Assembly (NCBI GenBank): GCA_021831565.1
Contig: JAKBMM010000018.1
Location: forward strand, 1 to 46,670
Length of the DNA stretch: 46,670 bases
Direction of reading: 5' to 3'
Source of the DNA: Planctomycetota bacterium
GTDB lineage: Bacteria > Planctomycetota > Phycisphaerae > WQYP01
Numbering within the stretch: the first letter of the stretch is position 1; the number at the start of each line of letters is the position of its first letter. A program made the position numbers and the translations under genes. The notes below the pieces were generated by a model, which worked only from the letters and a program-made list of their open reading frames with translations, searched no databases and was not told the origin of the DNA. Positions 5,528 to 10,581 of this stretch are shown in pieces.

Positions 5528-8629
<3,102 letters not shown>

Positions 8630-8683
8630 ATCATTACTCAATATTGGCTTTACGGTCTACTTTCTCCTGCTTACCTGCTGTCT

Positions 8684-10267
8684 CTATTGTCCTCTGGCGG
8701 CAATGGCTTCCTGTTCGTGAATCAGCCGATATTCCACCGCGTCGCACAACGCCCGCCAACTGGCCTCGATGATATTTTCCGACACGCCGATGGTTCCAAA
8801 GAATCCTTCCGGCGAGCGGAACTCAATCACCACTCGCACCTTCGCGGCCGTTTCCGCCGTGGCATTGACCACCCGCACTTTGTAATCGACCAGGTGCAGA
8901 CTGGCAATGCCCGGATAAGCCGGCGCCAGCGCTTGGCGCAACGCCGCATCCAAGGCGTTAATCGGACCGTCGCCTTCCGCGGAGGCGTTGATCTGCCGTC
9001 CTTGAACCAGCAGCGAAAGCGTCGCCTTGGTGCGCACCTGCCCCCGCTCTTGGCGCGATACCGCACAGCGATAATGGTGCAAGTCGAAGAATTTCCGGTA
9101 ACGCCCGATCTGCCGCCGCAAAATCAGTTCAAATGAACCTTCCGCGGCTTCAAACTGATAGCCCTGCGCTTCGAGTTGGCTCACCTGGTCGAGCACCTGC
9201 TTAAGCACAGTGCGGTCTTTTTCAATGTTGAATTTTCTGCCCGCCGTGGCGGCGATATTGGAAACGCCGGAAAGTTCCGAAACCAGGATGCGTCGCGTAT
9301 TGCCGACCGCTTCCGGCGCCACGTGCTCATACGAGCGGGTCGTTTTACTCACCGCATGCACGTGCATACCGCCTTTGTGGGCGAAGGCGCTGGCGCCGAC
9401 GTAAGGCTGGTTGTTAACCAGATTCAGATTCGCCACTTCGTACACATAGCGGGCGGTCTCGGTTAAATGCTCCAGCGAATTCGGGAGCAGGCATTCATAC
9501 CCCAGTTTCAGCCGCAGGTTGGCGATCACAGTGGTGATGTCCACATTGCCGCACCGTTCACCGAAACCGTTGATGGTTCCCTGCACCTGCTCCGCTCCCG
9601 CTTGTACCGCCGCCAGGGCGTTGGCTACCGCCAGACCGCTGTCGTTGTGCGGGTGAATGCCGATGGGCGCCGCCACTTTCCGACGCGCGGCCGCAACCCA
9701 TTGGGCGACTTGCTCCGGCAGCGAGCCGCCGTTGGTATCGCACAGGCATACCAGCACCGCACCGGCCTCGGCCGCCGCCGCGATCGTTTGCAGGCCATAT
9801 TCCGGGTTGGCTTGGACGCCGTCAAAAAAATGCTCGGCGTCGTAAATAACTTTTCGGCCCAGGCGGGTCAGATACGCCACGCTTTGAGCGATCATGTCGA
9901 TATTTTCCTGCAGCGATACGTCCAGCACTTGCGTCGCGTGCAGGTCCCAGGTTTTGCCGACAATGGTTACGTAGGGCGTTTGCGCGTCGCGCAGGGCGTT
10001 CAGACCCACGTCCTGGTCGGGATTGACCCCTTTTCGCCGGGTCATGCCAAATGCGACCAACCGGGCCTGCCGCAGTTGCAGGGAACGGGCTTCCTGGAAA
10101 AACCCCGCGTCCTTGGGATTGGAAAGCGGATAGCCGCCTTCAATGAAATCCACTCCCAATTCATCAAGCTTCTTGCATATCAGCAGTTTGTCCTGGATGG
10201 AAAAGGATATTCCCTCTCCCTGGCTGCCGTCGCGCAGCGTCGTGTCGTATATTTCAACTTTGGACAT
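8684..10267 (-). CDS. cimA: Citramalate synthase
   Basis: 527 residues. The N-terminal HMGL-like barrel shows DTTLRDGSQGEG at residues 8-19, the metal-binding IHPHNDSGLAVANA block, and GFGERCGN. The C-terminal ~150 residues form a LeuA-type allosteric dimer domain. The N-terminal sequence and length fit the CimA branch better than 2-isopropylmalate synthase. CimA condenses pyruvate and acetyl-CoA to citramalate, the threonine-independent route to isoleucine. A GAGG ribosome site precedes ATG by 6 nt. A small hairpin (ATCCGG-TCGTG-CCGGAT on the plus strand, 10281-10297) sits just upstream of that site. Further upstream are an intrinsic terminator and a structured RNA, suggesting transcript-level control. 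It is possibly cotranscribed with valS. Confidence 0.92.
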   Translation of the reverse strand: MSKVEIYDTTLRDGSQGEGISFSIQDKLLICKKLDELGVDFIEGGYPLSNPKDAGFFQEARSLQLRQARLVAFGMTRRKGVNPDQDVGLNALRDAQTPYVTIVGKTWDLHATQVLDVSLQENIDMIAQSVAYLTRLGRKVIYDAEHFFDGVQANPEYGLQTIAAAAEAGAVLVCLCDTNGGSLPEQVAQWVAAARRKVAAPIGIHPHNDSGLAVANALAAVQAGAEQVQGTINGFGERCGNVDITTVIANLRLKLGYECLLPNSLEHLTETARYVYEVANLNLVNNQPYVGASAFAHKGGMHVHAVSKTTRSYEHVAPEAVGNTRRILVSELSGVSNIAATAGRKFNIEKDRTVLKQVLDQVSQLEAQGYQFEAAEGSFELILRRQIGRYRKFFDLHHYRCAVSRQERGQVRTKATLSLLVQGRQINASAEGDGPINALDAALRQALAPAYPGIASLHLVDYKVRVVNATAETAAKVRVVIEFRSPEGFFGTIGVSENIIEASWRALCDAVEYRLIHEQEAIAARGQ

Positions 10268-10332
10268 AAAAACCTCATCTATCCGGTCGTGCCGGATGCC
10301 TTATTCTCAAGGGATTCATGGAATATATCAAT

Positions 10333-10366
10333 AAAAAAGCCCTGCACGCTTCAGGTTTGGCAGGGC
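10333..10366 (-). terminator. Intrinsic terminator upstream of cimA
   Basis: On the minus strand GCCCTGC (10366-10360) and GCAGGGC (10345-10339) form a perfect 7-bp GC-rich stem with a 14-nt loop, followed directly by six T (10338-10333). It lies about 65 nt before the cimA start, so it ends an RNA begun upstream of cimA. It fits an attenuator or the 3' end of an independent small RNA. Confidence 0.85.
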
Positions 10367-10547
10367 GGAAAAAAACGGAAATTCAGGGAGAATTTGAGGC
10401 GCCCTACCGTGCGGCCGGGATCATCCTGCCGCCGCTCGGGGCAATGGCAGCGCGGACAACAACCCGGGCCGCCGGTACTCCGGTCACCCTGGCTGGCAGC
10501 GATTGGGAAGCTGCACGATCTGTCCGCACGAAACACCTCATTCTTCT
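10333..10547 (-). ncRNA. Candidate branched structured RNA (leader/riboswitch or sRNA) upstream of cimA
   Basis: About 215 nt from a predicted start near 10547 to the terminator. By-eye helices: P1 pairs 10544-10533 with 10402-10389 (AGAAT+GAGGTGT against GCGCCTC+ATTCT with a 2-nt bulge). P2 pairs CGTGCGG (10530-10524) with CCGCACG (10414-10408). Inside are three hairpins: GCAGC/GCTGC (10514-10510/10500-10496), CCAGGGT/GCCCGGG with one mismatch capped by a CCGG-AGTA-CCGG stem (10492-10463), and CCGCGCT/AGCGG (10455-10432). GGCAGG (10430-10425) can also pair with CCTGCC in the terminator 5' arm, offering an alternative antiterminator. I do not recognise it as SRP, RNase P, tmRNA, T-box, TPP or cobalamin RNA. 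The function is unknown. Confidence 0.55.
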
Positions 10548-10553
10548 AAAAGC

Positions 10554-10581
10554 ATATTAACAGAAATCGCCGCGGCGTCAA
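10554..10581 (-). promoter_or_regulatory. Sigma-70-like promoter for the cimA leader RNA
   Basis: On the minus strand, -35 TTGACG (10581-10576), a 16-nt spacer and -10 TAATAT (10559-10554). The predicted start near 10547 coincides with the 5' edge of the closing helix of the structured RNA. Confidence 0.55.

Follow-up and report, generated by a model that had tools for sequence, protein, structure and literature searches.

A candidate leader-peptide attenuator with a helix at its start codon upstream of cimA and valS in Planctomycetota

What is the leader of roughly 220 nt that lies between the promoter and the end of the terminator before cimA in a Planctomycetota bacterium? The window, by which we mean the whole 46,670-nucleotide stretch of DNA that was analysed, carries on its minus strand a citramalate synthase gene, cimA (8684..10267; TIGR00977, 663.9 bits, cut-off 450), and the next gene after it is valS, encoding valine--tRNA ligase (5528..8641, minus strand; NF004349, 1016.7 bits, cut-off 704), as is the case in most genomes of the family. 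The product of cimA is the entry to the citramalate route towards isoleucine. No model for ilvA, encoding threonine deaminase, scored over its cut-off in this genome, and cimA is therefore probably its source of 2-oxobutyrate. A first-pass annotation had described the intervening sequence as a branched RNA with a bulged closing helix, acting either as a riboswitch-like attenuator for isoleucine-pathway supply or as an independent small RNA. The promoter proposed there (minus strand, 10581-10554) was confirmed, with the -35 element TTGACG at 10581-10576, a spacer of 16 nt and the -10 element TAATAT at 10559-10554. So was the terminator, GCCCTGC...GCAGGGC followed by T6 (10366-10333, minus strand), 65 nt before cimA. 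Two promoter-like sites were seen in the region against 0.4 expected, and similar promoters, read by eye, precede the homologous leaders. The leader fold (-91 kcal/mol) was more stable than that of shuffled sequence (-80.3 kcal/mol, z -2.5). At the gathering score no Rfam family matched the window, riboswitches, the T-box leader and 6S included, in agreement with the annotation's view that the element fits no known RNA family; the housekeeping-RNA match named as grounds for dismissing it was likewise not found at this score. None of the Rfam models was matched by 20 related cimA loci, and the matches of the window obtained with lax thresholds were mostly look-alikes of terminators.

The annotation had mentioned neither the valS gene after cimA nor a Shine-Dalgarno sequence and an open reading frame (ORF) that span most of the supposed branched RNA. 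GAGGTG (10534..10539, minus strand) is invariant in 15 aligned family leaders and stands at Shine-Dalgarno distance from the GTG of a 41-codon leader ORF ending in TAG (10404..10529, minus strand), with the predicted product MRTDRAASQSLPARVTGVPAARVVVRAAIAPSGGRMIPAAR. The frame is conserved, together with an in-frame Ile codon, ATT (10443..10445, minus strand), which is invariant and is the putative stall codon; translation places three Val codons, GTT GTT GTC, on its 5' side (10455..10463, minus strand). The distance from GTG to ATT differs among the family genera (84, 90, 84, 93, 84, 78 and 75 nt), and in every case it is divisible by three, in frame and free of stop codons, the leader stop following 0-12 codons 3' of ATT. 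Two further genera, reached with covariance model R1, obeyed the same in-frame rule. The pattern shared within the family upstream of cimA is GAGGTG(T)NNN-GTGCGGACAGAT ... CTGTCCGCGCTGNNATT; the stretches between the conserved blocks are free to differ in sequence and, by multiples of 3 nt, in length, and the centre of the peptide is not conserved among homologous leaders. Taking into account that the length changes preserve the frame and that the Ile codon is invariant, the element evolves like a translated leader and not like a free RNA fold. From sequence comparison, the leader of the window is very probably translated.

The distribution of the element was then compared with that of cimA. 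A DNA search of 61 relatives gave matches in 16 genomes, mostly at one conserved leader block, and the family matches at this block, where read out, lay upstream of cimA; matches at a ribosomal-protein locus (L014) and at L017 were judged to be due to chance. With the covariance model, a homologous leader was detected in 20 of the 28 family genomes, in one copy each and only before cimA, and one match (G023, E 0.023) was rejected as it lay inside a coding gene. No copy was found outside the family in 397 genomes of the class and 392 of the phylum under strict filters that may have lost weak matches. The leader is absent in five genomes of genus g2 (L028, L029, L032-L034), which has lost it. 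In this genus, an rlmN-like coding sequence, recognized by eye, ends shortly upstream of cimA, and a TTGATA-17-CACAAT-like promoter is present. These data bear on the second proposal of the annotation. An independent small RNA, or a small-protein gene, might merely adjoin cimA, with cimA using its own promoter at 10331-10303; the element does possess a promoter and a terminator of its own, a promoter-like sequence follows between terminator and cimA, and genus g3 displays a conserved TATAATG stretch in this interval. However, every copy seen in the family lay upstream of cimA, with never more than one in a genome, the peptide centre is not conserved, and the codons of related leaders correspond to the amino acids that the genes behind them make or charge. 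We thus regard an independent RNA or gene as very unlikely.

We then asked which part of the RNA structure is shared. The ORF opens with ten bases, start codon included (GTGCGGACAG, 10520..10529, minus strand), that pair with ten bases 5' of the Ile codon (TTGTCCGCGC, 10450..10459, minus strand, ending 4 nt before it). This helix, P1, was recovered unaided by RNAalifold and is the only helix common to the family leaders. Of the covariation that the annotation had called for in homologous upstream regions, P1 supplied the one instance. In G006 (L021) its arms have become GCAGAGACAT and ATGTCTCTGC, with pairing retained by compensatory changes, while the encoded peptide has shifted from MRTD/VRA to MQRH/CLCA. 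The equivalent segments of families f9, f10 and f11 differ in sequence and yet pair alike. On average, cognate arms paired at -17.0 kcal/mol, against -11.1 kcal/mol when arms were exchanged among families and -8.6 kcal/mol when they were shuffled. A search with the exact P1 pattern found only 5 of the 28 genomes, the pattern being too strict. In genera g4 and g7, P1 is one or two pairs shorter and yet the codons are kept, and we therefore consider that both RNA and peptide/codon constraints may act on this region. The bulged closing helix of the annotation (10539-10524 with 10414-10396, minus strand) was real only in part of the family. Its 3' arm (10396..10414, minus strand) lies around and just after the leader stop, and the helix can mask the Shine-Dalgarno sequence and the start codon. 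Duplex energies were -25.6 kcal/mol in the window, -20.8 kcal/mol in its genus mate and -24.2 kcal/mol in genus g9, against about -15 to -17 kcal/mol for shuffled sequences. The helix was clear in g1 and g9 only, and values in most other genera were not above those of shuffles; as a core fold it was rejected as lineage-specific.

The compensatory changes in P1, the strong conservation of the blocks adjoining it, and the existence of a terminator with an alternative pairing are also what one could find in a ligand-binding riboswitch, in which the RNA would bind Ile, Val, 2-oxobutyrate or another metabolite and control the terminator without translation. Against this reading, it is the Shine-Dalgarno sequence that makes up the conserved block on the 5' side of P1, and P1 itself begins at the start codon. 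P1 alone is shared, and the interior, free to vary in length and sequence, does so in 3-nt steps that keep the reading frame. Related leaders are simple Ile-run ORFs, and the element stands only before cimA, one per genome. The term riboswitch-like, if meant in the sense of ligand binding, does not agree with a frame-conserved ORF that has an invariant Ile codon and Ile-run ORFs as relatives, and we consider this reading extremely improbable.

If the leader is translated, the position of the ribosome should decide which RNA segments can pair. Four segments are relevant (all minus strand). Segment A (GCTGCC, 10446..10451) lies directly 5' of ATT, where a ribosome halted on the Ile codon would cover it. 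Segment B (GGCGGCAGG, 10425..10433) spans 12-20 nt downstream from the first base of ATT and can pair either with A, as an anti-antiterminator, or with segment C (GCCCTGCC, 10359..10366), as an antiterminator. C contains CCTGCC and forms the 5' arm of the terminator, and segment D (GCAGGGC and T6, 10333..10345) provides its 3' arm and U tract. The pairing of GGCAGG (10430-10425) with CCTGCC, which the annotation had put forward as a state exclusive of the terminator, was supported by stall modelling and by spacer shuffles. Ribosomes were modelled at the conserved Ile codon (or at the Ile cluster where RA-x-I is absent) and at the stop codon. The terminator 5' arm was paired upstream with a mean of 0.86 for a ribosome at Ile and 0.34 for one at the stop, and the expected direction was clear in 37 of the 38 modelled leaders. 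In the window, modelling gave an antiterminator pairing of 1.00 (Ile) vs 0.19 (stop) and a terminator probability of 0.01 with the ribosome at Ile and 0.99 at the stop, contrasts that are partly built in, as the stop-codon mask hides more RNA. Spacer shuffling was the fairer control: it lowered the antiterminator to 0.58 and raised the terminator to 0.87, and in the window the terminator reached 0.88 with a shuffled spacer vs 0.01 observed. By modelling, antiterminator and terminator are thus mutually exclusive and depend on ribosome position.

What might hold the ribosome at this site? RA-x-I is retained in most leaders of families f1, f9, f10 and f11, and the Ile/Val runs of f1 leaders are reduced. 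Both features would suit nascent-chain arrest, in which the conserved peptide end (V)RA-x-I, which we take to resemble RAG/RAP-type arrest motifs, stalls the ribosome via the exit tunnel, the attenuator reading this stall and not codon starvation. In G006, however, the motif is CLCAAI and the helix has been kept through compensation, and therefore pairing accounts for part of the RA conservation. Plain Ile runs in cimA-only leaders also argue against arrest by the peptide, which we consider very unlikely.

Codon starvation agrees better with a wider comparison. Many other Phycisphaerae carry a short ORF before cimA and then a terminator, mostly within 20-50 nt (22-55 nt from stop to terminator across leaders); predicted peptides include MNIQNIIISIIINIGGD, MNSRIASIIIISNHTKR, MTASSAIIRIDIIIPHRRR and MPMRTDIISPIIITPGNCG, each ending at a stop codon. 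In 15 cimA-only leaders, 24.5% of residues were Ile, vs 1-2% in the other two frames, and 1.1% were Val; in 12 leaders followed by cimA and then valS, Val accounted for 13.8% and Ile for 8%, the peptides outside f1 having been chosen by eye. To correct for this choice, ORF selection was repeated on shuffled DNA. At loci without valS the mean maximal Ile count near the terminator was 3.74 vs 0.36 in shuffled DNA, and at loci with valS the Ile+Val count was 5.17 vs 0.78. For the leader of the window alone, Ile enrichment was marginal (p 0.03) and Ile+Val enrichment not significant (p 0.19). The wider comparison, with its Ile-run ORFs and terminators before cimA, settles the kind of element, and such leaders very probably stand before cimA widely in Planctomycetota. 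Outside the class, Ile-run leader ORFs were noticed before some cimA genes (L142, L149, L159 and L162; for example MTNTLIIIGRIII and MPVSNIVCVSSIIIICEITGSL). At several loci of the class, including family f5 and the deepest branches, no such leader was found. In f5 (L103, L106, L112) cimA and valS are paired, and neither a leader ORF nor a strong terminator was found; the regulation of cimA must differ in this family.

The number of Val codons per leader was 2-6 at the 12 cimA-valS loci vs 0-2 at the 15 cimA-only loci, and Val-bearing leader ends at the former include VRAGIIAIVIVPCVP and ARAGIVVVVVAAGGPRG, both running to the stop codon. When Val codons and valS were placed on a CimA tree, about five supported independent contrasts were obtained and a sign test was not significant. 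In G009 and G021, valS is not adjacent to cimA, yet the leaders still bear Val. That the Val codons follow linkage of valS to cimA is thus suggestive only. In genus g9 (L020, L138; G009), an rpoN-like gene, recognized by eye, follows cimA in place of valS.

Taken together, a leader ORF with a translation start (Shine-Dalgarno sequence, GTG, conserved frame) precedes cimA on the same strand, and its regulatory codons are the invariant in-frame Ile codon and, in relatives, an Ile/Val enrichment that is weak in the window alone. We consider it highly likely that cimA-valS is controlled by ribosome-mediated transcription attenuation responding to the charging of Ile- and Val-tRNA, and the earlier suggestion of an attenuator for isoleucine-pathway supply thus gains support from stall modelling and the spacer-shuffle control. 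Comparison and computation established the promoter, the frame of the ORF, the invariance of the Ile codon, the covariation in P1, the alternative pairings and the gene context. That the leader is transcribed and translated, that ribosomes stall on it, which amino acids it senses and what P1 does are inferred. RNA polymerase would start from the promoter at 10581-10554 and a ribosome would initiate at GTG 10529. With Ile-tRNA scarce, and probably Val-tRNA too, the ribosome would stall at ATT (10445-10443) or at the preceding three Val codons and cover segment A, leaving B free to pair with C; no terminator would form, and cimA and valS would be transcribed. With charged tRNA plentiful, the ribosome would reach the stop codon, A:B would re-form behind it and C:D would end transcription. 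P1 may re-form after passage of the ribosome and hide the start codon, limiting repeated initiation. A bolder version, which we put forward with considerable doubt, is a 'one-shot' attenuator: P1 would hide the start after the first ribosome, a single RNA polymerase-coupled ribosome would decide, and the leader would join isoleucine supply (cimA) to valine charging (valS), gaining Val codons wherever valS has become linked.

The ilvGMEDA, ilvBN and leu leaders of enterobacteria are ribosome-mediated attenuators of branched-chain operons. The cimA leader resembles them in that its ORF contains cognate codons, antiterminator and terminator exclude one another, and a biosynthetic gene lies downstream. 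Unlike them, it precedes cimA and valS, occurs in Planctomycetota, has few regulatory codons in the window, and contains a helix that closes most of the ORF and engages the start codon. P1, predicted to pair the start-codon region, is an unusual addition to a leader-peptide attenuator, and the proposed system would extend an established mechanism to a new context (cimA, Planctomycetota), with a variant architecture. The nearest precedent is the ilvB-II motif of Corynebacterium, first a structured-RNA candidate and later an attenuator with an upstream ORF (uORF) (PMC10272879). Its uORF has a start in frame with a stop, lengths divisible by three and branched-chain amino acid (BCAA) codons, and a single copy precedes a BCAA gene in each genome (PMC10272879). 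The cimA leader is alike in all of these respects, and differs in gene, sequence and phylum; no valS association is reported for ilvB-II in the sections consulted. The ilvB-OMG and ilvB (Leptospira) RNA motifs, structured-RNA candidates too, are re-read in the same paper as uORF attenuators, their conservation fitting a BCAA-codon-rich uORF as here (PMC10272879). Those motifs lie before ilvB and not cimA, and the window and the 20 related loci match no Rfam model. In the open-access literature on cimA/valS leader peptides, attenuation in Planctomycetes and riboswitches in Phycisphaerae, no report of the element was found; the comparative attenuation survey of Lopatovskaya et al. (2010, cited in PMC4833913) may mention it. 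If our reading is right, classical leader-peptide attenuation would operate before cimA across Planctomycetota, bacteria with an unusual cell plan, and transcription-translation coupling would be predicted in them. Leader codons that track the gene content downstream (Ile before cimA, both Ile and Val before cimA-valS) would constitute a natural experiment. As in the case of ilvB-II (PMC10272879), what is taken for a 'structured RNA' of no known family may, upstream of amino-acid genes, turn out to be a translated leader.

Genera g5, g6 and g9 retain the ORF and P1, and a clear U-run terminator was not found in them. Considering these genera together with the absence of the leader in g2 and the promoter-like sites, some lineages may attenuate only in part or have replaced attenuation. 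A promoter-like TTGATA-17-GAGAAT (10331-10303, minus strand) stands between the terminator and cimA, also in G001, and as a second promoter it could possibly bypass the attenuator. In the corresponding interval of genus g3, a conserved TAAATCC(T/A)TATAATG is found inside a hairpin, directly before the cimA Shine-Dalgarno sequence. In the window, a small hairpin, CATCCGGCACGACCGGATA (10280-10298, minus strand), occupies the position directly before the Shine-Dalgarno sequence of cimA, and hairpins at the matching position are also present in G001 and genus g3.
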